Part shown: positions 1,914 to 44,178 of the stretch, piece after piece
Layout: every line of letters starts with the position of its first letter
Position numbering within the stretch: the first letter of the stretch is position 1
IMG/VR virus record: IMGVR_UViG_3300023196_003765
Coordinates: 24,180 to 68,357 of that record
DNA: 44,178 nucleotides
Reading direction: 5' to 3' (one strand)
Origin: a virus
Notes under the pieces: model-generated
What the model was told of the DNA's origin: nothing
What the model saw: the letters and a program-made list of their open reading frames with translations, nothing else
Database searches by the model: none
Position numbers and translations under genes: made by a program

Positions 1914-3505
1914 TGGCCATAGTTAGATATACTGCTAGCGCAGACAACACCATAGTAAACGCTTTTAAACCCAATATGGTCACGCGTGCTACTGGTGCCA
2001 ATGCTGGCGCAGCAGATGTCTTAGAAGTGTACTCAGTGTATTCGAGAGCTTATGTTAGCAGCTCCGCGCGCCCAACTGGCTCGCAAGAACTATCAAGAGT
2101 ATTAATTCAGTTCCCAACTTATACTATTTCCGCCAACCGTACCGCGGGCACTATACCTGCTAGCGGCAGTGTTAAGTTTTATTTAAAACTTTATAATGCA
2201 GAAACTTCTAAAACCGTACCAACCAATTATTCTTTAAGTATTAAACCAATAGCGCAAAGTTGGCAAGAGGGAGATGGGTTAGATTTAGAAAATTATACTG
2301 ATGAGACAAGAGGAAACCGCGGTTCAAACTGGATGTCTGCATCCAACACATCAGCATGGACCTCATCAGTTGGTGGTGATTACTTAACCGCATCTGCTGA
2401 CCCTTTGTTCGTGAAAGACTTTGAAAATGGTTTAGAGAATTTAGAAGTAGATATTTCACCACTTGTTGAAGAATGGATTGCCGGCACAAAATCAAATTAT
2501 GGTATGGGGATTATGTTATCTTCTTCTTTCGAAGCGTTCAATTCTGCATCATCGAATGTGTATACAGGAAGCGCAATTGAAAGAACAGGTGGTGCTACAA
2601 AATCATATTATACAAAAAGATTTTTTGGCCGCGGCACTCAATATTTTTATAAACGTCCTGTAATCGAAGCTAGGTGGGATTCAACAAAGAGGGATGACCG
2701 CGGCGATTTTTATTATAGCAGCTCTCTTGCAAATGCTGAGGATAATCTAAACACACTGTATCTTTTTAATTATATACGCGGCCGACTTAGAAACATTCCA
2801 GCAGTTGGCACAACTGGTTCTATTATGGTAAGCTTGTATTCAGGCTCAAAAACTAACATAGAGCCCTCTGGTTCTAGGTTATTGCTACATAACGGTCTTT
2901 ACTCTGTAACAGGTGGTTATGTCTCTACTGGCGTTTATAGCTGTTCGGTAGCTATTACCTCCGCAGCTACACCCATAAAAAATCTTTACGATGTGTGGCA
3001 TAGCGGCTCGCATGGAGATGAACATGGTGGGCATGCTTATTCTTCAACTACAATAGAATTTTACACTGGGTCAATTAATCCTCAAAAGTTCTCTGCTTTT
3101 GGAGAAGCAAGAGAGCCAAGATACTTTATCAACATAACCAACCTTAAAAACAGTTACGCTGGTGGTGATAAAGCTAGATTCAATCTTTATGTAAGAAATA
3201 AAAATTGGTCTCCTACAATTTATTCAAAAGCAAAAGAAAATCCTGAACACTTACCAATTTTAAGTGCATCGTATAGAGTATTTAGAACGCTTGACGGTTT
3301 AGAAGTCGTATCACACAATACAGGAAGCGATTTCGCTACCGGCCTATCCTATGATATTTCAGGAAACTATTTTGATTTTGAAATGGATTTATTAGAGCCC
3401 GGCTATGAATATGCATTTAAATTTTCATTTTATGATGAAGAATTAAGTTCATGGAACGAAGAAGGCAAACCATTTAAATTTAGAGTTTTAGATTATGAGT
3501 ACTAA
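1913..3505 (+). CDS. Virion protein with DNRLRE-like N-terminal domain
   Basis: A 530-residue protein encoded between the gp6-like gene and the giant baseplate gene, so almost certainly part of the baseplate or an appendage. Residues 61-205 have the layout of a DNRLRE/carbohydrate-binding-like beta-sandwich: SRVLIQFPTYTIS, then AQSWQEGDG, a Trp/Ser-rich stretch at 140-150, and VDISPLVEEWIAGTKSNYGM at 179-198. Proteins with this fold usually sit at cell surfaces and bind glycans. The last 80 or so residues look like another beta-sandwich (FDFEMDLLEPGYEYAFKFSF). Its start overlaps the previous stop by one base, and its end overlaps the next gene by 11 bases, implying coupled translation. The glycan-binding role is inferred; it could equally be a purely structural connector. 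Confidence 0.6.
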   Translation: MAIVRYTASADNTIVNAFKPNMVTRATGANAGAADVLEVYSVYSRAYVSSSARPTGSQELSRVLIQFPTYTISANRTAGTIPASGSVKFYLKLYNAETSKTVPTNYSLSIKPIAQSWQEGDGLDLENYTDETRGNRGSNWMSASNTSAWTSSVGGDYLTASADPLFVKDFENGLENLEVDISPLVEEWIAGTKSNYGMGIMLSSSFEAFNSASSNVYTGSAIERTGGATKSYYTKRFFGRGTQYFYKRPVIEARWDSTKRDDRGDFYYSSSLANAEDNLNTLYLFNYIRGRLRNIPAVGTTGSIMVSLYSGSKTNIEPSGSRLLLHNGLYSVTGGYVSTGVYSCSVAITSAATPIKNLYDVWHSGSHGDEHGGHAYSSTTIEFYTGSINPQKFSAFGEAREPRYFINITNLKNSYAGGDKARFNLYVRNKNWSPTIYSKAKENPEHLPILSASYRVFRTLDGLEVVSHNTGSDFATGLSYDISGNYFDFEMDLLEPGYEYAFKFSFYDEELSSWNEEGKPFKFRVLDYEY

Positions 3506-6500
3506 GGATTTATTTGATAGAAATTATCTAAAAGATAAAACAGAAAAAGACGCATTTAAGGAAGTTGAATCAGCCAAAAATGTAAATGAAATAAAAAAGA
3601 AACAAGACACGTTCATTCCGCAAATTGACTATTCTAATCCGAGAACGTTTTCTAAATATGGTTCTGCTGTATTGTATTATAAAAGTGCAATTGACAGGAT
3701 TTCTAATTATTACCCTTATGATGGTTCATCAGCAGAGGTCACCAAATTTTATAATGATTTATTAGGTGTAGATAAATATATACTTGACAATAGATACCCC
3801 AGAAGTACAGGGTATGCAATATTTTCACCAGATTCTTATCTTTTTTCAACAGTTACCAATGGCTATGCAGTCCCTGCAACAAGCGATCACCAACACATTA
3901 CTTTTAATGGTGGCCCTAATGTATTAAATGAAACAGAAGAGCTTAAAAAATTAGTACCTAATAGTGAAAATAATAAATTTCAATTTAACAATGTTTATAA
4001 TGAAGATGGATTCAATAATTTATATTTAAATGAAGGTCTCCCATCAACTTATGGAAAAGGCACCCGAGCTTCAAATTTAAGAGCAAATTTTGATGATGGT
4101 GTGACTGTTGAATGTTGGATTCACACTGGTTCTCTTACACCAATTACTGAAAATGTTTCTAAGCAAGTAATATTTGACTGGTGGAACCAAGAAGAAACTT
4201 CAAGCGCCGGATACGGTAGAATTACTCTGGAATTAACTTCTTCCCACGCCGCCCGCGGCGATCAACAAAAGCCGCTTATATTGACAGTGCAATCAGGCGC
4301 ACATACAACACAAGACTTTCTTGCTTTGGGTCACGACATTGACCGCGGTACAGCATTGTCTGATTGGACTCATCTGGCTGTACAAATACAAAACACTGGC
4401 TCCTCTGGTTCTTATGACTTAGTGTCTCGCCTGTTTGTCAATGGAGAGCTAAATGATACCGCAGTCAGAGGTGCTTACAATTTAACTTCTTCAACAGGCG
4501 CCCGCGCATGGCCATTTGCTAGTGATAACCATTATTCAAGTTCGGCAGCACTACAAGGGTGGTGGCGTTTAAACGGTGGTGATGATCGATTCACAGTCGC
4601 AAAACCATTTATTTTAGATCATAGCCAAAACTTATTTACTGGTTCTGTTAACAGTCCCTTGCTAACTGGTTCTGCTCTTATAAGTCTGCTTGGCGGTGCA
4701 GTGATGCCGGCCGGAGCTATATATCCGGCAAGGTATATTCAAGGTGATCGAGGTAGTCGTCTTTTTAATAGTGGTACAGCTCATGTAAATATCGGCATGC
4801 CCGAACGTTGGCAAAGTCTTTTTGGTCGACCAATGTACGGTGGTACAGAAAAATTTACAATCGCTAGCTGGGTTAATAAAACCGGTGACGGCGGCTTCAA
4901 TGCTCCTATGGGTGGAGAAGCAGCCGGCTACGGACATATAATAAGCTTTTCCGAAGGCGCCGCCGGCGCGGTAGGAGTTTACACAGATCCATCCGAAAGA
5001 ATTTACATATATGTAAATTGGGATAGTGGCACAAACTACGGTACCGCAACCCAAATTACGTATCGAACAGATACTAGTGCTTTTAGTCTAAGTACTTGGA
5101 GCCATATCGCCATCGCATTTGACGCTACTGATCCTAGCAACCTTCCTGTTATATACGTCAACGGAAAAGCTCAAAGTGTATCTGTATATAGCGGTGGAAC
5201 TGCATCCGGAAGATTTTGGGGCCCCGGAACTGTGAAAGCCCCGGCGCTCGCCGCTGAGCAGTGTTATATTGGCAATCTAATGGATCCTGGATTTACCGGC
5301 GATGCTCGATTCAAAGCTAACTGGCAAGGCTATTTAGCTGATATTGGTATTTGGAATTCGGTTTTGTCAGCCGCAGAAGTCGAATCGATTTATAGTGCTT
5401 ATTTGATTAGAATAGACGACGAAAGAGTGCGCACAGTTAATGAATTAAACGCAAAAGGAGCGAAAGGTCGCCTTGGTGCTCTTCAAGCCGCCCAAGCCGG
5501 CTTAACGGCTGGTGCTGGTGCTGGTAAACTAAGTGGATCCGTGGATGAATTTAGATATTGGAAAGTTAGCAGAACAGCGGAAGAAATAGGTAGACACTGG
5601 TTCACCAATATTCATGGTGGTACAAATACAGATATTTCAAATACTACATTGGGAATGTACTATAAGTTTAACGAAGGTATCACAACAACATCCAGCGTCG
5701 ATAGTACAGTTTTGGATTATGGTGGTCGACTTTGCAATGGTACATGGACAGGTTATTCAGCTAATTCTAGAAATACTGGATCTGCAATTGTGTCAGCATC
5801 AGCTGCTGCCGTAGAATATAGAGATCCGATTATATATTCTGATCATAAAAGTGTTGTTGCATTACAAAAGGAACTACAAAGTTCTGGTTCGTTTTACGAT
5901 AGACAAAACAATGGTATGTTTTTAAAAACTATACCATCTTGGGTTTATGAAGACTTAAATGAAGATGGCGAAAGTGATTTAGAAAAGCTATCACACGTTA
6001 TAGGTGCATATTTTGATAAATTATATTTACAAATTCAAGCAGTACCAAGTTTTAGGCACGCTCAATATACTAGTGCTTCGCATAAACCATTTCCGTTTTC
6101 TCAACATTTACCACAATCTTTGGGTTTAACCACTCCACAATTGTTTGTGGATTCAGAGCTTTTAGAAAGATTCTATAATAGAACAGACAAAAGTTTATTT
6201 GAAAATGATCTAAACGAAACAAAAAACTTAATCTATCAAAACTTATACAATAACTTAGCTTCAATATACAAAGCAAAAGGTACAGAAAAAGCAATTAGAA
6301 ATGTTTTAAGATGCTTTAATATCAACGATAATTTAATTTACGTAAACGCATATTCAAATAATCAAACTTTTGAACTTAGAAGCAACACGAAACAAACACA
6401 AAAGAAACGCAAATTTTTAAATTTACATAATACAGGTACTTTGCAATCGGTTGTCTACTTAGCAAATCCACATAGCGATTTTAATAAAAGAGGTTATATT

Positions 6501-9500
6501 TCAGCTTCTGCTCCTTCGGCTTCTGTAACGATGCCATTGGCTGAATTTAATGCATATACAGCACTTCATCCTCACGGCCCAGAAGACAAATATGGATTCA
6601 CTATGGAAGCTAATGTCAACTTCCCAAGATTTAATGATGAATTTGACCCAAGACATAGTTTTATAACTTCATCTTTATTTGGTATGACCACGGTGTGGAC
6701 CGCATCAACAGCACACACAACGTTCTTATCAAGTTCACAAGACGTGGCCAACTTTCAAGTTTTAGCAATTAGGGATAAGCCCGGATCCAAAAACATTTAT
6801 TTTAGATTGTCATCATCTTATGACCCCTACTTGTTATCAGAGTTAACAACAAGCAACTATTACGATGTCTATGATAATGAAAACTGGAATTTATCGGTTG
6901 CAGTTAGGCCTAAAAAATATCCATACGCCGCCGATCTTATTTCTGGTTCGGGAGTTCCAACTAGTTTTAGTAGTAAAGCAGATGGTTATGATGTAATTTT
7001 CAGAGGCTACAATAATACACTAGGCACCATTACAAACAAGTTTGAGTTAACAAGCTCGTTGCTTAAAAGCGAAGGTTCTGACATTCTTAATGCGTGGAAA
7101 AGACCATATGTCGGTGCCCTCAATCTCAACTTAACTGGGGCTTCTGTACACAAAAGTGATATTTTAGTCAATGATGTTAAATACTGGACTGCCTTTGTTG
7201 ATGACATAACATTACAAAAACACACGGTCGACAGAGAAAACTTTGGACTGTCCGCATCATATCAAAATATATCCCCGCTTGATAGCCTAAGCAAATATCA
7301 TGATATTTATAGAGCTAATTCATTATTATTGAATTGGCAGTTTTCCGATGTGACGGCATCCGACGCGGCTGGAAATTTTGATATAACAGATTTTAGCTCC
7401 GGATCTGCATTCGAAAGAGATAATTTTGGATGGATAGGAGAGAAAACAGGCTTTCTTCATGCTGGATATGCAAATTTATTTCCTGTTTCAAACACCAATG
7501 TTATAGAAAATAAATTAGTAAATGAACACAAGTTTATGAATCCAGAGCTTTTAAGATCTTCCGACATGGTACAGATCTTATCAGAAGATGATGAGCTTTA
7601 TGGCGTCTTTGATGAGGTGCCAAATTATATATACACAGTAGAAAAAAGTTTATACGGAGCAGTAAATGAAGAAATTTTAGACTTCTTTGCTGGTGTTATA
7701 GACTTTCACAATATAATCGGTGAGCCGGTACACAGATATCGACAAGAATATAAGCCTTTAAATACATTAGTACAGATATTTTTTGAGAAATTCCGAGAAA
7801 TAACCACTGTTGAAAGATACACTGAATATTATAAATGGTTTGATGATTCTCTGACAAATATTATAAGCCAATTAATTCCAGCGTCTTCTGATTTTGTTGA
7901 AGACGTACAAAATATTGTCGAAAGTCATATATTAGAAAGGGCTAAATATCAAACAAAATACCCGACATTAGATTTTGCCGGTTCAGATCCAGAAGGTGAA
8001 ATTGAAACAATTAGTGAATTATTGTTAGACTATGTTGGTGCAATGTATGGAGGCTTAGAAGCTTCACCTCGACCAGAAAATGCTCACAGAGAATTTTGGT
8101 TAAAACGAGCATTACCCGGTTCATCAAGTTTGGGTTTTGATTATGAAATTGCTACTGATAATGCTGCTGTTTTTGGCGGCGGCGGTCCAGTTGACAATAA
8201 GCGAAGAGATCTCAGAACCGCAGCATGGAGAAAACCTACGGGCTCGTATACTTCACCTGTGCTAGTAAAGACAGAAGATGGTAAAGCTACATTAAGATAT
8301 ACACCAACTCGCGCAATGCATACCCCAACAACATTATATGCATCAGAGGTTCAAAATAGAGTAATTAAAGGCGGAGTAAACTTTACAGATCATAAAGATA
8401 TTCATTACACTCATACATCTTTGTATCCAGCCGGACCAATTTTTTCTCCTAGTGGTGGTGTTTTCCTTCCACAAAACGTTTTGTATGCAAGAACAAAAGA
8501 TTTTGAAGCAACTTCTTCTGATTCGCAATGGCGGGATGAAGGTGGTTCTCGATGGCGCGTTGGTCACGGTAAAACCTCTATTCGTGGAGAAGAAAAACTA
8601 ACTTCCAAACAGAAGCTGTACGGTAATGTTTATCAAGGCCGCGATTTTGATGGGGGCTATAATTATACTAACAATAAAACTAGTTTTGCGTTTCCGTTTA
8701 ATATTATAAGCGCCTCAATAACAGGCGGTGTAGATAATTGGATTTCAAATAGAGTGGGCAACGGTATAACAATAACCAATGTCCACAATGATGTATATGG
8801 TCCAGATATGGAAATTCCATTACAAGGTCCGTTTACTGAAAAATATGTTGGTGGTCATCAATCGAGACATATTAAAATTAATACTGGATCTGATAATTAT
8901 ACAAATCGCCCAGAAGCATGGAAAATATTACTCGGTCAGTGTATTGATGCTACCGAAGCAGATCACTACTCAGATAATTCAATTCCATATGGTTCTATTC
9001 CTGCTTCCGGTTCAATTGGAATGGCCTCAGCGGACTACCCTTGGCCAGAAGCAAATGAAGTCAGTGGAACTCCTTACCCAATGACTGCTTCTCAAAAAGC
9101 GACATATTACAGAGGGATGATGGCAAAACGTCCTGTTAATATTCGTAATATATTAATGAAAACAGGTTCTTCAACAGTAATTGGCAACTTTCAAAATAAC
9201 TATGAAGTCATCCATTCAGTTGGAGCGTTTGAAAATCCAAGAAACTTTGTAGATCAACAACCAGTATTACCAAGTAATGTTTTCCAAGAGCGCGCAATTA
9301 ATGCTACGCAAGTAAGAACATTGCTGGGTATTCGTAGAGGTGATGACGGCCATTTTAATTGGGTAGATGAATATAATGTTGGATATCTCACTGCTGCTAA
9401 CGGTGGCTTAGCAGTGTCAGATCATTATCGTGGGAACCCTCATCCCGGAAACAAAAGTATTATTACTAGTAGATTTTCTGCAATAGGAGCCATCGAGGTT

Positions 9501-12500
9501 GCCGCGGCAGGGTACAAAGATATTAGGTCTAATGAATATTCTGTTTATAACGCGTTAAATAATAGATATCAAACAGTTATTAAAAAATACCAAGGCCCTT
9601 CTGGTACGTGGGATGAGCCCACTGCTGGGGCTTATGGTAGACTGACTGGAACAACTGCTATTAGAGTATCTGATATACACGGCAAGCCTTATGGTTATGT
9701 TTCGCACTTGGCTAGACATACTGCGAGATTCGGCAGAGATTCACTTTTTATGACCCAATCTGGCAAACTCCCGGGCTCCAATGACAATGTATTTAGCGAA
9801 TTGCCGGGCTTCCACAAAATTCACAGAAACAGACGGCGTGTAATTGTCTCCACAAATGAGGCTAATACTGCATTTGCAACTAGTTCTAAATTCGACAACT
9901 TTTTTATTCAACATCCAATCCCAAGATCAACACAACAATACTTGTGGATAACAAGGTCGTTAAAGTCCAACAATGAGATATATGGATTTGTACCATCGAG
10001 CTTCCTTGTCAGTAAATCATCTGGTTTTGATAGCGCCTATGATTTTGTGAGCGCTAGCGATATTGTTTCTTCTAATTCAATTGGCTATATACAATCTACA
10101 AATAATTTAAATCTGCTGGTTTACGAGCCGATAGACTCAGGTTCTAGAACAATTGGCACGAGTTCTAATACAAGCGGTTCTTCTCGTTATTTACTTACTA
10201 AAAGTACGCCAAATCCAGAAGTTGACCACTTCAATCTTCTGAACACAAAACGTGGATACATTTATGGTTATGGTGGTGGGCCATCATTTGCAAGAAACCC
10301 ATACAACCCGTTACTGAGAGATCAAAAAACAAGAAACAAAATTTCAGTCTTATTGCGCCACCATCATGAAGAATTTTCTATGAAACCAGTTTCAATGAAA
10401 GGTCGACCAGTATTTGTTAATATGGATCACGTCGTAAGCAGGTGGGATTCAAGATTGGGGATGGAAAAATCACTCGATAATACGACGCTTAGAACAAGCC
10501 ACAACAATGAACTTATATTATTTAATGATAGAAAGTTAAATGATTGGGTAAACATAATTCCTGCTCTTGACAACCAAGTGACTCCCTTTGAACATCTAGT
10601 AGCAATGAAAGATCGTAGAGGAATTAATCTACACTATATTGTTTATACTGAAAACGTGCTCCCAAGTACAAGAATGGAATTTTTATCAAGATCTACCACA
10701 AGAGTAGGATATGACAATCAATTTTGGAGAGATAGTGTTGATGAGAGAATCGCGCAAGGAATATATTTTACAGGACAAAGAACAATAGATGCTATCGCCG
10801 GAACCTTGTTTGGGAGACCAATTGATTCTTGGCAGCCGGCCGTCAATTCTCAGGGGCTCTTTAATTCTATTAATCCTTTTTCTGGTAGCAGCAAGGGAAC
10901 CCTATCAATAGGATACCCCCTATTAGCTACGGGTGTTGGCTCAAACAGGCCTACAATGCTCCAAAACGGATTAACACAAAGTATATGGCCCCTTGATGCC
11001 CCGGGTAATTTCCTGACGCGCACAGAGCCTCCTATGATTACTAGATGGGTTCACGCTTCGGAGTCTGCTCACAATCCAACAAATACATATTCTTGGGCTA
11101 GTCTGGTAAACTCAAATTCTGCCGGCGAGTTACAAAACACATACTCCCTGTATCATCAAATACTTAGTAGCAGCGGAGGTTTGTCAGACACGTTTACGAA
11201 CGGCCCGATACCATCTGCTAGTTTAGAATATCAAAATCTAGCACTTTGCATAAGAAATGGCGCTGTTTATGCTAGAAAACATATGTTAAATTCCCCTCTT
11301 TCGGTTAATTCTCCTAATTCAATTCCTGTTTTATCTGATACACCGCCATTTAACACAACAGGATCTGCTAAAAGAACTGGTGGTCGCCCGGGCACCGAAG
11401 CTAACAACACGGCACTTGGGTACGCGAATATAAAAACTGGATCGGGTGAGGCACTTTGGGATGCGCCGACAACTGCTGGGTATCTAACAAAATCAGCCAC
11501 TGGTCCCTTGAACTTTATATCTGCACCATCCAAACCGTGGTACAATGATTATGACGAATTCCGCTACGATATTAAAACAGTTGCAAAAGGATTTGCAGTA
11601 ATACCGGAATTTAGAATATCTGAACACATTGAAGACTATGCAAAACTGGGGCCCCTTGAAGCAGAAGATTTTGATACTTTTGAAATCCCCGGTACTAATT
11701 TAAGCAGCTCGCAGTCATCTTTCTATAAAGATTATGCAAACACAGACTTTCTTAAAGAATTTTTCGATGTTAAACAAATGTCTGACTTAAATGGTAAAGA
11801 ACTGGCTTTGACATGCATGGCTACTCTTAAATTTAATCCTTACAAAGGATTTTATCCAGTACAAAGAACCCTTGATCTGGTAAGTCAATTTTCTAGATCA
11901 TTTTCAGAAGGATTTTCAGTTTCAAGTATAAACGAAGATGGAAAGAGAGTTTCTACTACTAGTAATATTCTTTCAAGCTACGGTTATATGAGACCGTTGT
12001 ACCAGCCTTTGTTTGCTCCCGGTATTTTATATAATTCGATTAAATCAGGTATGGCTGTTGATTACCCAGTTGTTCTTAATGGCTCTAAGGTCAGGTTTAT
12101 GCAAATAACTGGTTCTCCGAATGCTAATAATGAATATCCTGAGAATTGGTTACTGGCTACACGTATTAATACTTCCAGTGTTTATGCGGGTTCTCAAATT
12201 GCGACCCCCGCCGATCCAGCTAGAAATTATGTTAGTGGTGCACTATGGGACTTACGAGTGCCCTTTGAAGCAATCATTGATCCATCAAAAGATCTTAAAA
12301 GCGTGTATATCCCTGATTTAGAACCTAATCCTTCGGCTAGTCTAAGATTATCGCTTAGTGCAGCATTTACACAAGATCCCGGAGATAATTTATACACGTT
12401 AATGGCTTCTAATTTCTTTTCAGAAGTAGGTAGGTTTTTCTTAAAAGGTGGCCAATATACTCAATTACGTTCAAGTGGTCTTTCTCTCAAAGATGTTAAA

Positions 12501-14489
12501 TTTCCCCCGGGCGCTGTTTATGGAGCAAGATTAAAACTTCGTGCTTCAAACACCGGCGGTAGAACCTATGAGCATGAATCTGGTTCAGACGGCGCCGGAA
12601 CTTTTTACGCACCAGATGGAGCGATATCGGTATTCAGATCAGAATTTGACGGTACAGTTATACCTAGCAGTTCAGCCGGCCCTGCATCCGCGGCTTCTGG
12701 GACATTCCAGCTTCCACAAGATCCAGCAATGAATCCAGATTTTAAACAAAATTTCGTTATGTATAGTAGACCAACCGCTTTTGGCCCATCAATAACAGGT
12801 AGAAATTTTGGTGGCTTTGAACACGCAAGGCCGGTAATTGATGGTAGAGGTGACTTATTTGCTTTGTCTGCTTCTAGCTATGGAGTTAAAGACTCATTAA
12901 ATGGATATAATTGGGCGTATACCCCACCATATTACCACGGAGAAGCGTGGGCAGATATGATTTTTAGACCAAGCGCAAGCATTTCTTATGATTTACAAAG
13001 AATATTACAAGAAATTGTTCTTGTACAAAGAAGATACGACCCGGGCCCAGAATTACCATGGAACCCTCACGGAACTGAAACACACAAATCGGCTACCGGT
13101 CTGTATTTTAGAAGCCTTGTAAGGGATCATGACTTGCATTTAAACAGTGGTAGTCAACAATCTCAAAATTATCAACCATATGCTAGTGAAAATATTAATG
13201 CTAACGCTATGCAAATTGATTCATGTTTTAATTTATTCGGTGTAGAAAATGTACCCGTTGTTAAATCTACTGCATTAGGACCAGAAATTGAGCCTGTTTC
13301 TACTGCGGCGCAACGTTGGGTAATTCAACCTAAATTCGAAACTCCTATGTTAAATTTTGCGGATACCGGCATTCGCCCGATTACGGCTAGTTACGCCGCC
13401 CGCGGACATGGTGGTATACCTTCTGGAAGCAGTACTTTGAGTTTGCCTTTGCATGCTTCTGAATCAGTTCCGAGAGGTATGTGGCACCAGTTTGGTATCC
13501 TGCCCGACTCGCCTACAAAGGGTGTGTTTGTGGAAATAGGAGATATACCAGCAAACTGGCTTGAAAACCATTACGAAGTAGTAACTGGTTCTTCCATTTA
13601 TAATAACTTTTCCGCTTCTGAGGGTCCTGATATTTATAAAAACATGAAATCTCTTTCTAAGTTAATGGGTTTCAGCGGTGAAAACACATCAGCAAGAATG
13701 GGTGAAATTGCTGAGAAAAGAGTTATTAGAGAAGCAGTGGTTGCTGTCCCTTATATTCTTGAACGAGGGCTTGAAATTGATGAGACTGCCCCTGATCCTG
13801 ATAAAGCTATCGCAAGAAAAAGGTTTATCAATATTCAACGTTCTCGTTTTGAAGCAGCCCTTCCGGGCCCTTCAATTTCCGGAGGTGATACATCGCTCAG
13901 TGCCGCAGGACAATCGGTAAGAAAACTAATACAAAAAATGGGCAAATATGTACTTCCGCCGCAATTTGATTTTCTTAATAATAGAGAATTACAGCCTGTT
14001 GTAATGTATATGTTTGAGTTTGCTTACGAATTGGACAAAAATGATTTGTCTTATATATGGCAAAACTTAGCACCTCGCGACTATAAAAAGCTTGAATTAA
14101 GACAAGTTAGCACAGCACATCGATTAAATTTTGCTGAATTATTGTCGGAAAAAGATGTTATGGAAAACCCTAATTTAAGATGGATGGTATTTAAAGTTAA
14201 ACAAAGAGGTCAATCATCTTATAACGACATGACAGTACCACAAGCTGGTGAGGTTGATACAACTGTTGTTCGTGATACAACGGAAGGATATCCACTACGT
14301 TACAACTGGCCATATGATTTCGTATCTATTGTTGAATCTATTAAGTTTGATGTGACTGTATTGTATGGGAAGAAAATTAGCGAACATGGTATGGCCGATC
14401 CGAGAACCGGAGTATTTAGTCGCTCTCGTGCTGAAACAAAAGTTAATCGAACTTTAAATAAAAAATTGAGAAGAAAAAAGAAAGTTTAA
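3495..14489 (+). CDS. Giant baseplate/adhesin protein with LamG-like and tail-protein-I/gp7-like regions
   Basis: At 3664 residues this is the largest gene in the window. Concanavalin/laminin-G-like folds appear near residues 198-320 (VTVECWIHTGSL, LSDWTHLAVQIQ, RLFVNGELND), 449-640 (EKFTIASWVNK, LSTWSHIAIAFDA, VIYVNGKAQ, LADIGIWNSVLSAAEVE) and probably 1029-1242. A short VDEFRYWKVSRTAEEIGRHW tail closes the second at about 680-700. Residues of about 776-946 (SDLEKLSHVIGAYFDKLY, NLIYQNLYNNLASIYKAKGT, EKAIRNVLRCF) resemble tail protein I of P2-type phages, whose T4 counterpart is gp7. The gp6-then-gp7 (J-then-I) gene order agrees. T4 gp7 is only about 1030 residues, so this looks like a wedge protein enlarged by surface-binding modules. 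The rest is Ser/Gly/Thr-rich and unrecognised; the C-terminus is very basic (KKLRRKKKV). No frameshift is evident. Confidence 0.7.
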   Translation: MSTKDLFDRNYLKDKTEKDAFKEVESAKNVNEIKKKQDTFIPQIDYSNPRTFSKYGSAVLYYKSAIDRISNYYPYDGSSAEVTKFYNDLLGVDKYILDNRYPRSTGYAIFSPDSYLFSTVTNGYAVPATSDHQHITFNGGPNVLNETEELKKLVPNSENNKFQFNNVYNEDGFNNLYLNEGLPSTYGKGTRASNLRANFDDGVTVECWIHTGSLTPITENVSKQVIFDWWNQEETSSAGYGRITLELTSSHAARGDQQKPLILTVQSGAHTTQDFLALGHDIDRGTALSDWTHLAVQIQNTGSSGSYDLVSRLFVNGELNDTAVRGAYNLTSSTGARAWPFASDNHYSSSAALQGWWRLNGGDDRFTVAKPFILDHSQNLFTGSVNSPLLTGSALISLLGGAVMPAGAIYPARYIQGDRGSRLFNSGTAHVNIGMPERWQSLFGRPMYGGTEKFTIASWVNKTGDGGFNAPMGGEAAGYGHIISFSEGAAGAVGVYTDPSERIYIYVNWDSGTNYGTATQITYRTDTSAFSLSTWSHIAIAFDATDPSNLPVIYVNGKAQSVSVYSGGTASGRFWGPGTVKAPALAAEQCYIGNLMDPGFTGDARFKANWQGYLADIGIWNSVLSAAEVESIYSAYLIRIDDERVRTVNELNAKGAKGRLGALQAAQAGLTAGAGAGKLSGSVDEFRYWKVSRTAEEIGRHWFTNIHGGTNTDISNTTLGMYYKFNEGITTTSSVDSTVLDYGGRLCNGTWTGYSANSRNTGSAIVSASAAAVEYRDPIIYSDHKSVVALQKELQSSGSFYDRQNNGMFLKTIPSWVYEDLNEDGESDLEKLSHVIGAYFDKLYLQIQAVPSFRHAQYTSASHKPFPFSQHLPQSLGLTTPQLFVDSELLERFYNRTDKSLFENDLNETKNLIYQNLYNNLASIYKAKGTEKAIRNVLRCFNINDNLIYVNAYSNNQTFELRSNTKQTQKKRKFLNLHNTGTLQSVVYLANPHSDFNKRGYISASAPSASVTMPLAEFNAYTALHPHGPEDKYGFTMEANVNFPRFNDEFDPRHSFITSSLFGMTTVWTASTAHTTFLSSSQDVANFQVLAIRDKPGSKNIYFRLSSSYDPYLLSELTTSNYYDVYDNENWNLSVAVRPKKYPYAADLISGSGVPTSFSSKADGYDVIFRGYNNTLGTITNKFELTSSLLKSEGSDILNAWKRPYVGALNLNLTGASVHKSDILVNDVKYWTAFVDDITLQKHTVDRENFGLSASYQNISPLDSLSKYHDIYRANSLLLNWQFSDVTASDAAGNFDITDFSSGSAFERDNFGWIGEKTGFLHAGYANLFPVSNTNVIENKLVNEHKFMNPELLRSSDMVQILSEDDELYGVFDEVPNYIYTVEKSLYGAVNEEILDFFAGVIDFHNIIGEPVHRYRQEYKPLNTLVQIFFEKFREITTVERYTEYYKWFDDSLTNIISQLIPASSDFVEDVQNIVESHILERAKYQTKYPTLDFAGSDPEGEIETISELLLDYVGAMYGGLEASPRPENAHREFWLKRALPGSSSLGFDYEIATDNAAVFGGGGPVDNKRRDLRTAAWRKPTGSYTSPVLVKTEDGKATLRYTPTRAMHTPTTLYASEVQNRVIKGGVNFTDHKDIHYTHTSLYPAGPIFSPSGGVFLPQNVLYARTKDFEATSSDSQWRDEGGSRWRVGHGKTSIRGEEKLTSKQKLYGNVYQGRDFDGGYNYTNNKTSFAFPFNIISASITGGVDNWISNRVGNGITITNVHNDVYGPDMEIPLQGPFTEKYVGGHQSRHIKINTGSDNYTNRPEAWKILLGQCIDATEADHYSDNSIPYGSIPASGSIGMASADYPWPEANEVSGTPYPMTASQKATYYRGMMAKRPVNIRNILMKTGSSTVIGNFQNNYEVIHSVGAFENPRNFVDQQPVLPSNVFQERAINATQVRTLLGIRRGDDGHFNWVDEYNVGYLTAANGGLAVSDHYRGNPHPGNKSIITSRFSAIGAIEVAAAGYKDIRSNEYSVYNALNNRYQTVIKKYQGPSGTWDEPTAGAYGRLTGTTAIRVSDIHGKPYGYVSHLARHTARFGRDSLFMTQSGKLPGSNDNVFSELPGFHKIHRNRRRVIVSTNEANTAFATSSKFDNFFIQHPIPRSTQQYLWITRSLKSNNEIYGFVPSSFLVSKSSGFDSAYDFVSASDIVSSNSIGYIQSTNNLNLLVYEPIDSGSRTIGTSSNTSGSSRYLLTKSTPNPEVDHFNLLNTKRGYIYGYGGGPSFARNPYNPLLRDQKTRNKISVLLRHHHEEFSMKPVSMKGRPVFVNMDHVVSRWDSRLGMEKSLDNTTLRTSHNNELILFNDRKLNDWVNIIPALDNQVTPFEHLVAMKDRRGINLHYIVYTENVLPSTRMEFLSRSTTRVGYDNQFWRDSVDERIAQGIYFTGQRTIDAIAGTLFGRPIDSWQPAVNSQGLFNSINPFSGSSKGTLSIGYPLLATGVGSNRPTMLQNGLTQSIWPLDAPGNFLTRTEPPMITRWVHASESAHNPTNTYSWASLVNSNSAGELQNTYSLYHQILSSSGGLSDTFTNGPIPSASLEYQNLALCIRNGAVYARKHMLNSPLSVNSPNSIPVLSDTPPFNTTGSAKRTGGRPGTEANNTALGYANIKTGSGEALWDAPTTAGYLTKSATGPLNFISAPSKPWYNDYDEFRYDIKTVAKGFAVIPEFRISEHIEDYAKLGPLEAEDFDTFEIPGTNLSSSQSSFYKDYANTDFLKEFFDVKQMSDLNGKELALTCMATLKFNPYKGFYPVQRTLDLVSQFSRSFSEGFSVSSINEDGKRVSTTSNILSSYGYMRPLYQPLFAPGILYNSIKSGMAVDYPVVLNGSKVRFMQITGSPNANNEYPENWLLATRINTSSVYAGSQIATPADPARNYVSGALWDLRVPFEAIIDPSKDLKSVYIPDLEPNPSASLRLSLSAAFTQDPGDNLYTLMASNFFSEVGRFFLKGGQYTQLRSSGLSLKDVKFPPGAVYGARLKLRASNTGGRTYEHESGSDGAGTFYAPDGAISVFRSEFDGTVIPSSSAGPASAASGTFQLPQDPAMNPDFKQNFVMYSRPTAFGPSITGRNFGGFEHARPVIDGRGDLFALSASSYGVKDSLNGYNWAYTPPYYHGEAWADMIFRPSASISYDLQRILQEIVLVQRRYDPGPELPWNPHGTETHKSATGLYFRSLVRDHDLHLNSGSQQSQNYQPYASENINANAMQIDSCFNLFGVENVPVVKSTALGPEIEPVSTAAQRWVIQPKFETPMLNFADTGIRPITASYAARGHGGIPSGSSTLSLPLHASESVPRGMWHQFGILPDSPTKGVFVEIGDIPANWLENHYEVVTGSSIYNNFSASEGPDIYKNMKSLSKLMGFSGENTSARMGEIAEKRVIREAVVAVPYILERGLEIDETAPDPDKAIARKRFINIQRSRFEAALPGPSISGGDTSLSAAGQSVRKLIQKMGKYVLPPQFDFLNNRELQPVVMYMFEFAYELDKNDLSYIWQNLAPRDYKKLELRQVSTAHRLNFAELLSEKDVMENPNLRWMVFKVKQRGQSSYNDMTVPQAGEVDTTVVRDTTEGYPLRYNWPYDFVSIVESIKFDVTVLYGKKISEHGMADPRTGVFSRSRAETKVNRTLNKKLRRKKKV

Positions 14490-23706: not shown

Positions 23707-26700
23707 ATGTCAGATTCAACAATAGAAGTAAGTCCAGCACTACGCGATTATGATCCCACTAGGGATATTAATGTCGAGTTTTCTATGACTGCTCCATTCC
23801 CGACAGATCCGGGAGTGTCGCAACAAAAAACAATATCTTTTACGGACACAAATCTTTTAGTTAATTCGTCGGATGTGTTTAGAAATGCTGTTGGCGGTTT
23901 TTATTTTAATGACACAGATAGTGAAAACAATTTTCGCACACCACCATCATTTTATAAATTTTTACCATTAAACAATCCAAACGGTTACATTTTTTCTATA
24001 AGTTCTTATAAGGGCCCAAGCATTGATATTCCAACCACAGCAGGAAGTTCTAGAATTGTCGCCGCCGCCGAAGCTGTTGGAGGTAGTTTTGGTTCAGAGG
24101 CAGATGAAATTGCAGGTGGTTTAGGCGGGTCGTATACCGCGCTGTCAGAACAAACTGCTTTCTCGTTTTTGGATACTATTCTTCCGTTTGTCCAGTTTGT
24201 TGTACATGTCGAAGGGGATCCCGTGCACCCGACTTTGCAAAATCCAATGCAGGGTAATAAATTTTGGAAACTTATGTTTACAGGTGATGGAGAGTTTGAT
24301 GAAATCCCGGTAAATTCAATTTATAGCGAACGTGTTTATAATGATCATACTTTTAATATTACACATCCTTATGAAAAAATTCAAAAACAATATCACTATA
24401 AAAGAAATAATAAAAAATATATTGAATGTTCGTTCGAATATAACAGATACTTTAAGGAATACCAAAATTACAACTCAACAATTGAATCAGAAACCTTGAT
24501 TCCAAATTGGTATATGATGAGTTTAATTGCTTACTCGTTGGATTACGAAACTCCATCCGGGTTTGGGCCCTCAACCAATGGGATTCCTGCTAGCACGATA
24601 AGTTATTATGGCTTTGGTGCTGATTATGACGGTGACGTTGAAGAGTTATCTAGAAAAATCTATAATATCGATAGTGATACTAGACTGCAAGAAGCCAGCA
24701 TGCGCATTGCATCAGTGATGCATTATGGTTTTGAACCATTAGTCGAAGGCCCCGGGGGATTCCGAAAAATGAGAAAGCACTTAGATACCCAATATGTAAT
24801 TTCTGCATCGTTAGCTCCGATGGGTATTAAAGATTTTCATAAAAATCGTTATAAAAACATTTTATTCAACAACTACGCAGCAAAAGAAAATTTGAGATTC
24901 AATGAACCTCCATATACTGCAAGAAGAATTTGGCCGTATTATAATCGAATTAGGTTTGATAAGTTGCCAAGCGGAGATTATACAGATTTACTGGTCACTG
25001 AACATTGTGATACGCTAATTTTGAGATCATTAAAAGAAATATTTACTAATCAAGCACCAGATACTCCAATTGAAAATTGCCAATTTTTACAAAACGAACG
25101 TTTTCTTGATCCACAAAGCAATGCAAATAGAGAATATGGAGCGCCTATGGTAGAAAATGTCGCAAGTAGCTCAAAAGTTGTAAATTATAAATCTGTGGAT
25201 TTTATTAAATTATTACTTCATTCACATAATACAATTAAAGAAGAAAATAATGATTTTATAATTGTTGATTTTAAGAATATTGATCTTGAAGCGGCCTATG
25301 GCAAAAAAGGTGTGTTCCGTTCCTATAATGTAAAAAATGTATTAAAATATTTAGATAGAATTTCTAAGAAATTTTATGATCCAGCCGGCAAAACTGCTTT
25401 TAAAATTAATAATATAAATTCACTTTTAAATTCACAAAATGATCAGATACAATTTGATCATACACAATTTAATCTTTTAGAACCACAAAGTAAAGACAAT
25501 GAGGTAATAGCTTATAGAGTTGAAAAACTAGCACCACCAGCAGAAGGTGATTCTAATACCAGAAACGTAATACAGAACTTTTGGGTCTTTAACGGATTAG
25601 AAAATATGGATTTCAATATTGTTGACAATCAAGTCAAATATGGTGTAGATTATACTTATAATATATACGCCTATTATCTTGTCAGTGGTTACAAATATAG
25701 ATTTTCAAATTTACAATTAAGCAGGGTTATAAGTTTTGTATCACAAACAGAAGATGATTCTGATACTTCTGCATACGAAGCTTTGTTGGCCGAAGGGCCA
25801 GGTATTGATGAGCCGTATGGCACTTTCTTAGAAAGAGTTAAAGCATACTGTATCGAGTTTTTCGATCCAGTAACTGGTGATACTGTACCGGATATGTTAG
25901 AAAGTGTAGTTTATTTGCCGGAACTTCCCGAGTCAATTGAAGTATCTTCACTTGCAGGTGAAGATGTTAGAGTGGCAATTTCTCAAAGATCCTATTCCCC
26001 TGTCGGAAGAGCAGAAGTTGCAGGTTTAACCTCGGCTCCAACTAACGCAGCATTACCGCCTTATATTGCAAATTTTGTAACTACTATCCAACCATCTTTA
26101 AAGGTTATAGAATGTCCAGTAATGTCAAAAACATATAAAATTTTAGACAATCCGCCTAACGAAGTCAATATTGTGCCTAATGTGACACTCAAAGGCACAA
26201 ACGCAAATGCATTTGTTTTTGATATGGTTTATCAAAATTTAGATTTCCGCACTAAATATCCTAAAATTGTGGCACCTTCACAAGACATGTCAAAAATGCA
26301 AGATTATCTACATGGCAAAGATTTAATTGTCACTAGTAAACTAATAGATGGGTTTGATGCTGATGAACCAGATAGAGCTAGTTCCATTAGTCCAGTTAAA
26401 GATATTGAAATATACCGTATGGATAGAAAACCTTTGTCTTTTGCAGACTTTGAAAGTTTTCTTTTAACAAAAATTCCAATGAAATTATCTATTGAAGAAG
26501 CAATGTACATGGAAAATGCAGAATTTTCATACACAACAGAGCATTTTAGTGATAAAATTGAAAGTAATAAAAAATATTATTATCTTTTTAGAGCTGTTAG
26601 TGATAATGGCATGCCCGGCAAAGTTGACTCAATTATAGAAGCTGAATTGGTTGATGATGGGGGTTATCGTTATGCACTGTTTAACACTCTTTTTGAAGAA

Positions 26701-31685: not shown

Positions 31686-31701
31686 TTTCATTGCAATGAA
31701 A
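31686..31701. promoter_or_regulatory. 16-bp perfect palindrome in the FKBP leader
   Basis: TTTCATTGCAATGAAA is its own reverse complement over all 16 bases. It lies at the predicted start of the mRNA and its last bases run into the SD sequence AAAGGAG. It could be a second operator, or fold as a 6-bp hairpin with a TGCA loop that exposes or hides the ribosome site. Confidence 0.45.
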
Positions 31702-31710
31702 GGAGAAAAA

Positions 31711-32280
31711 ATGCAAGCAACAAATGGAAGTACCGTAAGTGTACATTATGTAGGCACATTAGACAATGGTACCGAATTCGATAACTCTCGCGTCCGCGGC
31801 GAAACGTTACAGTTCGAACTCGGTTCAGGTCGTATGATCACTGGTTTTAATGATGCTGTGATCGGGATGAGTCCCGGCCAAACTAAAACAATCAATCTCG
31901 CCGCGGAGGAAGCTTATGGGATGCACAACCCAGACGCAACTGAAAAGGTCCCTCGACAAATGTTCGGCCCTGAGTTCGAATTCATTAAAGGAGGCACAGT
32001 AAGAGGCAATGGTCCTCATGGTGTGTTTTACGCAAAAATTTTGGGTTTCGATGAAGAGAATGTCGACCTTGATTTAAATCACCCACTTGCTGGTAAGGAT
32101 TTAACTTTTGAAATCGAGTTAGTTTCTGTTGATGGTGCACACCCAATCGCTAGTGATGAATCTTATAATTGGGATTTATCGATGAAAAAGGTTGAACTTT
32201 ATGAAATTGCCAAGGCCAAAGGCCTTAGTATCAATAGTAAGTCAACCAAGGCGCAAATTATTGAAGCGCTTGAAGCCTAA
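31711..32280 (+). CDS. FKBP/SlyD-type peptidyl-prolyl isomerase with C-terminal HeH/SAP-like domain
   Basis: A 189-residue prolyl cis-trans isomerase. The FKBP core is at residues 8-70 (VSVHYVGTLDNGTEFDNS, then FELGSGRMITGFNDAVIGM, then AAEEAYG) and is completed at 121-140 (LNHPLAGKDLTFEIELVSV). The insertion between these parts is the IF (insert-in-flap) chaperone domain of SlyD-type enzymes. The last 32 residues (MKKVELYEIAKAKGLSINS, KSTKAQIIEALEA) look like a HeH/SAP-type helix-extended-loop-helix domain, often nucleic-acid binding, and unexpected on a SlyD-like protein. An ATG at 31696 is in frame, but AAGGAG at 31699-31704 is correctly spaced only for 31711. The gene has its own promoter and a strong terminator. 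It looks slightly richer in G+C than neighbours (two CCGCGG sites), which may indicate transfer from a host. Confidence 0.85.
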   Translation: MQATNGSTVSVHYVGTLDNGTEFDNSRVRGETLQFELGSGRMITGFNDAVIGMSPGQTKTINLAAEEAYGMHNPDATEKVPRQMFGPEFEFIKGGTVRGNGPHGVFYAKILGFDEENVDLDLNHPLAGKDLTFEIELVSVDGAHPIASDESYNWDLSMKKVELYEIAKAKGLSINSKSTKAQIIEALEA

Positions 32281-37849: not shown

Positions 37850-38989
37850 ATGTCAGACGAAAACGATAACAACGAATTTGATTTTCTGCCTCCCGCAGAA
37901 CCACCTCCCGCGTTTGCGCAGGAAAAAGACAGTTACCACGAAGAAGTAGATGCAGAAGATTTCGGTATGGTTGAAGACTTCGGATTACAGATGGAATACT
38001 CTGATGAAGATTTACTCCCCGAGAATACAGCACCCTCATCTATCAATGTTGGTTTTGTCGGTGTCGGCGGTGGAGGCAATAAAATGGCGAATGCGTTTAT
38101 TGAATTAGGTTTCAACAAAACGCTACTCGTAAATTCAACAGGTAAAGACATTCCAAAGAATGTAGAAGAGGATCACGTTGTCCTCATCCCCGATTCAGAT
38201 GGGATTGGAAAAAACGTAGAATATGGAAAAGAGGTTTTAAGTCAAAATGGTGCGATTGTTGAAGATGCCCTGCGTATCAAACTCGGTAAAGTTGATTGGT
38301 TATTCGTCCTTGCTGGCGGTGGCGGTGGTACCGGTAGTAGTGTTACCGCTTTGCACCCTGTCTTTGAGCGTTACATGCGCTCTGTGCAATCGAGTGGCAA
38401 AGTCATTTACATAGTTTCGTGGCCAACAGCACAAGAAAATCTTAATCCTACAATTGCTCGCAATGCATTAACATTAGCAAACGATGTTGCTAAGCATCCG
38501 CATATCATTTTAGATAACGAACGCGCCACACGTTTATTGCGCGGCAGAATCGGCATGCTCGGCATGTACCCTGTCGCCAACACAACTTTTGCTAAGTCAC
38601 TTGCCCAAGTGTTAAAACTCTCCACTGAGGACTCACCGATCCAATCTTTCGATAGCAAGGATTTGGAAACATGTTTGGGCAATGACGGCCGCGCTTTTAT
38701 GGGCTCGACAATGATAAAGGACCCAAATACTGCAAAGCTTGGATCGGTGATCCTTCATAACTGCATGAACAGGTCAGCGTGCCCCCCACCGAAGGGTAAG
38801 GCCGCAGCAGGTTCATTGGTTTTGGTAGTCTCGGAAGAGATGGTGGCTGACCCCAAAGTCAGTAAGAATATTGAGTCGGCAATCGCCTATGTCGGCGGTC
38901 GATGCGAGACACTTTTCTCTGGCGTTTATGTCAGAAAGAATGTGCCCGGATTGATTGCGATACTAAGCATGAATGGATTAGCAACATGA
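37850..38989 (+). CDS. FtsZ/tubulin-family GTPase homologue
   Basis: A 379-residue member of the tubulin/FtsZ superfamily, which polymerises on GTP. The N-terminal nucleotide loop is GFVGVGGGGNKMANAF (residues 68-83), with the T3-like loop LLVNSTGKD (92-100) after it. The G-box is LAGGGGGTGSS (154-164), matching the tubulin signature GGGTG[ST]. The T7 synergy loop FDSKDLETCLGNDG (267-280) keeps both acids of FtsZ's NxDxxD (D268, D271), although the Asn is Ser. The C-terminus (LFSGVYVRKNVPGLIAILS) matches the last strands. An acidic 64-residue extension precedes the core. Known phage relatives are PhuZ and TubZ. GTPase activity looks possible; filament formation is inferred. Its stop overlaps the next ATG. 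Confidence 0.85.
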   Translation: MSDENDNNEFDFLPPAEPPPAFAQEKDSYHEEVDAEDFGMVEDFGLQMEYSDEDLLPENTAPSSINVGFVGVGGGGNKMANAFIELGFNKTLLVNSTGKDIPKNVEEDHVVLIPDSDGIGKNVEYGKEVLSQNGAIVEDALRIKLGKVDWLFVLAGGGGGTGSSVTALHPVFERYMRSVQSSGKVIYIVSWPTAQENLNPTIARNALTLANDVAKHPHIILDNERATRLLRGRIGMLGMYPVANTTFAKSLAQVLKLSTEDSPIQSFDSKDLETCLGNDGRAFMGSTMIKDPNTAKLGSVILHNCMNRSACPPPKGKAAAGSLVLVVSEEMVADPKVSKNIESAIAYVGGRCETLFSGVYVRKNVPGLIAILSMNGLAT

Positions 38990-43493: not shown

Positions 43494-43966
43494 AAATATC
43501 GAAATCAGATTTATATAAAATTGTTTTAGAAGAGTATATTAAAGAAGAAAACTTAGATGAAGCAATGAGCCGTGAAAAAGTAGACGCGCTGCTTAGGCAG
43601 ATACGCGGCGATGATCCGGCCCCTTCTGATGACGAAACTAAATTTATTAGAACTTATGGAAAACCTGCATCTGACTCTCCAACAAATCCGATGGATAAAC
43701 CTTTAAAACCAGACACCGCTTCGCAACCGATTGGTAGCAGAGTCACACAAGCATTATCTGTCGAAAACAAAGTTATGAGCTTAATAAAAGACATGAGCAA
43801 AGCAGAAGTGGCAAATTTATTTAACACAGTATATGAAAAAATAAAAGAAAAGCCCGGTACAATGCCTGATTATGGTGGATTAGCAGAAGATAAATCTAAT
43901 AACTCAGCCGTGGCTTGGGAAGAATTGAAAGATATTATTCGTGAAGCCTTGGCAGAGAGTGTATGA
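43490..43966 (+). CDS. Tagged protein (158 aa) beside the terminase
   Basis: A 158-residue protein with tag MKISKSDLYKIVLEEYIKEE and the site L22-D23-E24-A25. Its middle is Pro/Asp/Ser-rich (ASDSPTNPMDKPLKPDTASQ), and the C-terminal 60 residues are helical (MSLIKDMSKAEVANLFNTVY). The start overlaps the previous stop and its own stop overlaps the terminase ATG. Position beside the packaging gene fits a head role. A small terminase subunit is an alternative, though the proteins of that group that I know lack this tag. Confidence 0.5.
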   Translation: MKISKSDLYKIVLEEYIKEENLDEAMSREKVDALLRQIRGDDPAPSDDETKFIRTYGKPASDSPTNPMDKPLKPDTASQPIGSRVTQALSVENKVMSLIKDMSKAEVANLFNTVYEKIKEKPGTMPDYGGLAEDKSNNSAVAWEELKDIIREALAESV

Positions 43967-44178
43967 ATTTTGAACTTTCAAAAAAAGAAAAAGTTAAAGA
44001 AATATTAAAATGTGGCAAAGACCCATCTTACTTTCTTAAAAACTACGCCCGTATATCTCACCCGATGCACGGGCTGATTCTATTTGAAACTTACGATTTT
44101 CAAGATCAACTGTTAAACGATTTCAATGACTATCGATTTAATGTTATTTTAAAAGCTCGCCAACTAGGGATATCAACA
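43963..44178 (+). CDS. Terminase large subunit, N-terminal part (partial)
   Basis: The first 72 residues of a gene that runs off the window. The end of the visible part (FNVILKARQLGIST, residues 59-72) matches the Walker A region of gp17-type packaging ATPases, whose motif follows a KxRQ[LM]G[IK][ST]T pattern. Upstream FLKNYARISHPMHGLILF fits the N-terminal domain of marine myovirus terminases. The ATPase drives DNA into the prohead. The ATG overlaps the preceding stop (ATGA). Confidence 0.85.
   Translation, partial: MNFELSKKEKVKEILKCGKDPSYFLKNYARISHPMHGLILFETYDFQDQLLNDFNDYRFNVILKARQLGIST

Follow-up and report, generated by a model that had tools for sequence, protein, structure and literature searches.

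The main finding of this study is that the 379-aa product of a gene in a viral DNA stretch of 44,178 nt (hereafter the window, positions 24,180 to 68,357 of the 68,357-base IMG/VR record IMGVR_UViG_3300023196_003765) belongs to a large, separate family of tubulin/FtsZ-superfamily proteins of uncultivated phages, with no cultured representative among the records searched. Its members are tubulin/FtsZ-superfamily proteins with intact nucleotide loops, the H7 helix, the T7 acids, and a C-terminal domain. The family, the fold, the active-site residues, the purifying selection, and the gene context described below were all computed. The reading that we favor, with about even confidence, is that the protein is an active-looking GTPase of its own family that forms filaments, is made together with virion proteins, and positions or assembles heads or genomes.

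The superfamily assignment, made in a preliminary description of this DNA from the letters alone, is borne out by profiles, solved structures, and a predicted model. The window protein matches Pfam PF00091 (Tubulin) at E 6.4e-8 (33.5 bits, cut-off 33), and this profile is found at E 0.01 or better in 35 of 35 members of a diverse alignment; its curated cut-off is passed in only four of nine whole records. The best NCBIfam match is TIGR00065 ftsZ (E 5.8e-13), with 48.9 bits and thus below the equivalog cut-off of 295.2, solved FtsZ chains match at E 2.2e-11, and a PHROGs search with a limit of E 1 returned only family 17961 (E 0.0064) for the window protein. An AlphaFold2 model based on the 35-row alignment (mean pLDDT 86.7, pTM 0.82, with 284 of its 379 residues scoring at least 90) has the tubulin/FtsZ fold, with a long helix at residues 236–257 (H7) and a complete C-terminal domain with strands; pLDDT is under 50 at residues 1–5, 17–34, and 38–51, within the N-terminal tail. 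When the model was compared with known structures by VIA-align, residues 62–379 matched Bacillus cereus TubZ with Z 31.9 (rmsd 2.4, 310 aligned), followed by CetZ2 with Z 31.8 (2.6, 292) and Staphylococcus aureus FtsZ with Z 28.7 (3.1, 292), the rows including no PhuZ chain, an absence that carries no weight as evidence. Foldseek ranks CetZ and FtsZ first, and the predicted fold alone does not appear to single out a subfamily. The T1, T4, and T6 residues, as well as D268 and D271, are invariant in the 35-row alignment. Among the 160 family genes whose ORF has at least 330 aa, the T7 pattern is present in 158 and AGGGGGTGS in 149, the latter count being biased because some members were found by searching for that box. 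In the window protein, the motifs named in the preliminary description are all there, the glycine loop starting at residue 71, the G-box at residue 156, and the two T7 acids at the residues given, and the residues of the predicted nucleotide-binding site are present. Judged by its residues, the active site is intact and the protein looks like an active GTPase, which does not prove dynamic filaments. A chance or artefactual ORF is ruled out by the profiles, the model, and 182 further distinct homologous genes.

In the window, the gene is part of a tight gene row, since a single base separates the stop of the upstream 132-aa ORF from its ATG and its own stop overlaps the ATG of the next ORF as ATGA (Table 1). 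The tagged and packaging genes that had been noted beside it are indeed there, as tagged neighbors and as a terminase start, the latter resembling by eye a terminase cluster of the relatives in which one member is a terminase by PHROGs. PHROG matches in the window are a baseplate wedge subunit, a DNA primase, a Holliday-junction resolvase, and the one-piece SbcD/SbcC ORF; most large ORFs of the tail region have no PHROG match. An ORF of 3664 aa (3495–14489) also lies in the tail region. Several side observations can be made on this DNA. The SbcD-like nuclease and the SbcC-like ATPase are fused, and a similar cluster has a median length of 1038 aa over 98 loci (near-duplicates included). An ORF at 31696–32280 starts, by eye, like an FKBP-type prolyl isomerase, and its C-terminal end matches an endonuclease VII family. 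Short ORFs between 37450 and 43966 carry the recurrent N-terminal tags MKITKSxLKQIIKEE and MKxLFENWRKHLNEE, and a loose pattern for the former is found in 218 of 2642 neighborhood ORFs; these tags could be head-targeting signals cut by a prohead protease.

Table 1. Features of the FtsZ-like gene and its surroundings in the window, and tmRNA genes at related loci (locus handles given with the positions).
Feature	Position	Strand	Remarks
FtsZ/tubulin-superfamily GTPase gene, 379 aa	37850–38989	+	ATG at 37850, TGA ends at 38989
Acidic N-terminal tail, codons 1–64	37850–38041	+	EFDFLPP and EDFGMVEDFG, then LLPENTA; 20 D/E, 1 K/R
T1 glycine loop GVGGGGNK, residues 71–78	38060–38083	+	Sequence motif
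T4 G-box GGGGGTGSS, residues 156–164	38315–38341	+	Sequence motif
T6 region DNER, residues 222–225	38513–38524	+	Sequence motif, alignment
T7 loop FDSKDLE, residues 267–273	38648–38668	+	Motif, alignment; includes D268 and D271
Upstream neighbor, 132 aa	37450–37848	+	ORF list; N-terminal MKIKKSELKQLIKEE tag
Downstream neighbor, 91 aa	38986–39261	+	ORF list; begins MKQLFENWRKHINEE
SbcD/SbcC-like (T4 gp47+gp46) one-piece ORF, 1050 aa	34298–37450	+	PHROG match
Large terminase (gp17-like), start	43963–44178	+	By eye like the relatives' terminase cluster; leaves the window
tmRNA gene	L214 9051–9413		
tmRNA gene	L218 9141–9507		
tmRNA gene	L224 9038–9405		
tmRNA gene	L243 9197–9537		
tmRNA gene	L158 6395–6739	-	
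tmRNA gene	L211 9105–9467		

The family comprises at least 183 distinct genes, with products 49–99% identical to the window protein, which were left from 286 family ORFs after repeats (the same 240 bases around the G-box) had been dropped. They come from IMG/VR contigs and four MAGs, and include the window's own gene and five from MAG contigs. A first scan of viral contigs gave 145 relatives, the best 80 of which were 86–99% identical, and a pattern scan together with an alignment scan reached members of 49–50% identity; the totals are lower bounds. A search of 50,697 phage records gave weak matches in the two records of Bacillus phage G alone, which agrees with the earlier statement that known T4-like phages have no such gene, and plasmids gave no match to the family at E 0.01. 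A first scan of bacterial genomes, using patterns within the N-terminal tail only, found no relatives; a second found five loci (L208–L212) in four MAGs, three of Flavobacteriales/Flavobacteriaceae and one of Halobacteriovorax. We read these MAG-borne members as binned phage DNA, because capsid and neck genes adjoin the FtsZ-like gene at one locus (L209) and the Halobacteriovorax contig is equal in extent to an IMG/VR record (L249) that has the same match. Searches of the open-licence PMC literature turned up no description of an FtsZ/tubulin gene from a T4-like phage. Phage FtsZ-like proteins as such are already annotated, since BFVD holds entries from uncultured phages named FtsZ or cell division protein (15–18% identity). 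The present family is a new one within a known kind, the phage tubulins. In the available text of a review, PMC7950403, these fall into two subgroups, with TubZ encoded by a plasmid-like prophage and PhuZ by jumbo phages; that of PMC7824862 gives two distinct FtsZ/tubulin representatives in jumbo phages and that of PMC7162821 gives PhuZ in huge phages, neither of the latter two texts describing this family in the parts available.

The carriers are T4-like phages, in line with the setting originally proposed. The gp23 capsid family is found in seven of eight records; the exception is the 68-kb record of the window itself, in which the baseplate wedge subunit match speaks for the same setting. 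All seven large related records (185–281 kb) have gp23 and one PF00091 gene each, and none of the seven, as far as its sequence reaches, has the nucleus-shell (chimallin) family, which was detected in the control phage 201phi2-1. Terminase, portal, and sheath families were found by PHROGs in one relative each. Judged by capsid or terminase, Flavobacterium phage immuto and Microcystis phage Mel-JY01 are the closest T4-like relatives in culture; with queries taken from the relatives L085 and L025, immuto was the nearest cultured phage for gp23 and gp17. In both phages, the capsid gene is followed by a PhoH gene and by hypothetical genes, and neither gave an FtsZ-like match, which makes them a natural comparison for the family. 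Together, the Flavobacteriales/Flavobacteriaceae MAG members and immuto as nearest source weakly hint at Bacteroidota hosts. The Halobacteriovorax bin speaks against a single host group, and a marine habitat is a guess.

Phylogeny, run against FtsZ, TubZ, and PhuZ as had been suggested, places the family in a clade of its own. In a tree of 26 rows, with five FtsZ rows, one TubZ row (pBM400), and CetZ left out, and for which the program warns of long branches and false joins, the phage family is one clade (97/93) that stands beside bacterial FtsZ (100/98), TubZ plus phage G, and PhuZ. The pBM400 row, phage G gp138, and a relative join at 95/95, with TubZ as a single long branch; the pBM400 gene carries the annotation "cell division protein FtsZ" and is one that we take to be TubZ. 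The tree supports a separate family and does not name its sister group. The FtsZ proteins of the four MAGs and of Escherichia coli form a clade apart from the phage family, and recent capture of a host ftsZ is ruled out by this separation and by about 18–20% identity to FtsZ. The same distance bears on the idea that the protein is a division poison, an FtsZ mimic that co-assembles with or caps the host Z-ring and so blocks division during infection. FtsZ is the nearest by sequence among solved structures, and a core lacking the C-terminal peptide of FtsZ would have no hook to membrane and partners, yet mimicry sits poorly with the low identity to FtsZ chains and the separate clade, the T7 acids are kept though a capping poison would not need them, and the gene often lies among virion genes. 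We consider such a role unlikely. The T6 letters DNE and the T7 letters [FL]DxKDL are as in the TubZ and phage G rows and unlike FtsZ, which has ND at T6. This resemblance to the pBM400 protein and phage G gp138 ([FL]D-x-K/N-D-L at T7), together with TubZ as top structural row (tied with CetZ), would suit genome partition by a TubZ-like motor that moves copies of the phage DNA, for example in pseudolysogeny. However, the neighborhood clusters contain no small upstream gene common across contexts, whereas pBM400 has such a gene, overlapping the start of its TubZ-type gene, and the family has no TubZ-type C-terminal tail and is not joined to TubZ in a tree with one TubZ row, all of which makes partition quite improbable in our view.

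The surroundings of the gene in other phages were scored for marker genes, with a reach of 6.5 kb for capsid, neck, and scaffold and of 8 kb for the others. Among the matches listed, 105 of the 183 genes have terminase, gp46/47, or the small genes between these nearby (94 with terminase, 74 with gp46/47), 38 have capsid, scaffold, or neck genes nearby, and the others have no markers, 18 of them despite at least 3 kb of DNA on either side and 22 with too little flank to judge. Every marker gene found near an FtsZ-like gene shares its strand. Since the terminase and capsid classes had no minimum flank, the fair count is that of the 82 genes with at least 3 kb on both sides: 49 lie by the terminase/gp46–47 block, 15 by capsid, scaffold, or neck genes, and 18 elsewhere, so that 64 of the 82 are in or beside head or packaging blocks, as a raw count. 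On the capsid side, 22 of the 38 genes have the capsid gene upstream and a neck-cluster gene downstream, the rest being cut or placed otherwise, and at three loci (L251, L259, and L280) the FtsZ-like gene lies between portal and scaffold. PHROG matches supply the names capsid (major head protein, E 6e-72), head–tail adaptor (cluster 12), tail sheath, terminase, and portal; clusters 13 and 14 and the scaffold cluster have no PHROG match and are named by position. The terminase-side genes amount to few independent cases because they are mainly one close clade, making up 105 of the 183 genes among the matches listed, yet 16 of the 77 rows that remain once the set is thinned at 93% identity. In a quick tree of these 77 rows, context needs 11 changes, and the capsid–neck placement may be old because it occurs on both sides of the midpoint root. 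No neighbor is common to the different contexts within about 6–7 kb. A place between capsid and neck genes, seen in those 22 of 38 capsid-side genes, would also suit a static role, in which the protein binds GTP but is a structural component of the prohead, the neck, or an inner virion body, and the rows of tagged small genes nearby in the window clade may encode packaged proteins. Against a purely static part, which we hold to be improbable, stand the T7 acids kept in 158 of 160 genes and the window-clade FtsZ-like protein itself, which is without the small genes' tag. The preliminary description had offered positioning of genome or heads and interference with host division as tasks, and the gene context fits head positioning or assembly better than the latter.

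Two further features of the surroundings concern tmRNA genes and promoters. Of the 18 genes outside head blocks, 10 are preceded on their own strand by a tmRNA gene at a distance of at most 2.5 kb, as are 5 of the 22 short-flank genes, and 11 of these 15 tmRNA genes are within 131 bases of, or overlap, the start of the FtsZ-like ORF; none was seen in the available flanking DNA of the 38 capsid-side and 105 terminase-side genes. Rfam RF00023 confirms tmRNA in seven of seven loci submitted, one cut by a contig end. Phage tmRNAs are known, for example from mycobacteriophage LordLeafolot in the available text of PMC13014143. The T4 late promoter TATAAATA is found within 200 nt upstream of 1 of 88 terminase-side genes and of none of the 33 capsid-side, 18 other, and 17 short-flank genes; the window has two copies on the + strand and seven on the - strand, with 4.2 expected. 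A different element, ATATTTA, chosen by eye from regions upstream of FtsZ-like genes, occurs within 120 nt upstream at divergent loci in 9 of 37 FtsZ-like, 5 of 12 scaffold, 3 of 11 sheath, and 4 of 24 neck12 genes, against a background of 2% of 1560 random places and 19 of 252 other ORFs. It precedes only 1 of 16 capsid genes, 1 of 20 and 1 of 18 other neck genes, and none of 111 window-clade FtsZ-like genes. ATATTTA is possibly a late promoter of part of the group, and gives a weak hint of shared timing of FtsZ-like and virion genes.

The acidic 64-residue extension pointed out in the window protein (pI 4.05 vs 8.6 for the rest) proved to be conserved in relatives. All 36 representatives end at the last core strand, without a C-terminal tail, and have N-terminal tails of 33–150 aa. 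Over the last 40 residues of the tail, or over fewer where it is too short, the net charge ranges from -7 to -13, with a median of -10. The tails have a pI of 4.1–4.9 in 35 of the 36 and 7.8 in the remaining one (L178); core pI is 5.6–9.0 (median 8.0), and the non-basic cores of some members count against a universal or simple charge clasp between tail and core. The tail has a conserved DDFDFV-type motif, and the strict pattern F-D/G-F-V/I/L/M is present in 137 of the 183 family ORFs among the matches listed and in 1 of 2459 other neighborhood ORFs (near-duplicates included). A wider pattern is found in 150 of 160 family genes of 330 aa or more; nine of the misses are cut ORFs, starting no more than 3 bases from the end of their locus, and the tenth is without a T1-loop match. 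In the window clade (80 genes, 1500 sampled pairs), dN/dS is 0.034 in the tail vs 0.045 in the core (dN 0.059 and 0.063, dS near saturation). The tail is thus under purifying selection, and as constrained as the core in that clade. It probably does the work of a C-terminal tail, touching the next subunit or a phage partner.

These results can be brought together in a mechanism, in which polymerisation, timing, partner, and task are what we infer. In this superfamily, subunits with such features should polymerise into filaments and hydrolyse GTP where two of them meet. Most likely, then, the phage subunits would assemble head to tail, with GTP held by the T1–T6 loops of one subunit and its hydrolysis aided by D268 and D271 of the next. 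In place of the missing C-terminal tail of the FtsZ, TubZ, or PhuZ type, the subunits would probably use the tail at the N terminus, which has an acidic end and carries the F-D-F-V-type motif. The protein is probably produced together with virion proteins, and the filament would probably position or help to assemble proheads or packaged genomes. A filament made with virion proteins is the simplest joint reading because head, neck, and packaging genes surround the gene; the head-specific version is weakened by the 18 genes outside head blocks and by the lack of a placement baseline. A bolder form of the favored reading is that the protein is a tubulin-type, GTP-driven motor of the virion-assembly set that builds or delivers T4-type heads, steered by an N-terminal acidic motif and working without a phage nucleus; we put this forward tentatively, as a possibility. 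The family points to a cytoskeleton in phages beyond those for which one had been described. A large T4-type family without a nucleus shell would show phage cytoskeletons to be more widespread than has been assumed, with a possible role in virion assembly, and the conserved tail offers a handle for asking about a binding partner.

Comparison with known systems highlights both similarities and differences. PhuZ, for example 201phi2-1 gp59 of the phiKZ-like nucleus-forming phages, is likewise a phage-encoded superfamily protein of large phages, and its acidic C-terminal tail holds the next subunit. In contrast, the carriers described here have gp23 and no nucleus-shell gene, and their protein has no C-terminal tail and an acidic tail at the N terminus, which may be an N-terminal counterpart of the PhuZ tail. 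The PhuZ family PHROG 4733 gave no match to the window protein at E 1 and matched in one of seven related records at E 2.9e-4. TubZ of Bacillus plasmids has a like fold and DNE and [FL]DxKDL-type letters, but shares only about 16–18% identity in addition to the differences in tail and tree already described. Gp138 of Bacillus phage G, noted as putative FtsZ-like, is 22.8% identical to the window protein by tblastn (E 0.03) and 25.6% from a divergent member (E 1e-3), and scores 60.8 bits with the family profile; unlike the family, it starts at the T1 loop with no N-terminal tail, has a C-terminal extension, and groups with the TubZ row. A close relative of gp138 (66%) is encoded on a 175-kb viral contig (L084, 3001–4116). 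Bacterial FtsZ has the fold and the G-box in common with the phage family, but has a C-terminal linker and peptide that the family lacks and forms a separate clade, and with TIGR00065 the window protein stays far below the FtsZ equivalog cut-off (48.9 vs 295.2 bits). Archaeal CetZ, compared by structure, has a like fold (Z 31.8 and 30.2), and its chain 3zid matches the family profile into the C-terminal domain, but it is 20–23% identical to the window protein. Finally, FtsZl1 and FtsZl2 are divergent families of the superfamily in the available text of Makarova and Koonin (2010, PMC2875224), by whose description alone they are compared here: FtsZl1 differs from the phage family in its coiled coil and unclear T6–H7 region, while FtsZl2 keeps T1, T4, T6, T7, and H7 and has a C-terminal region of about 300 aa where the phage protein ends with the core.
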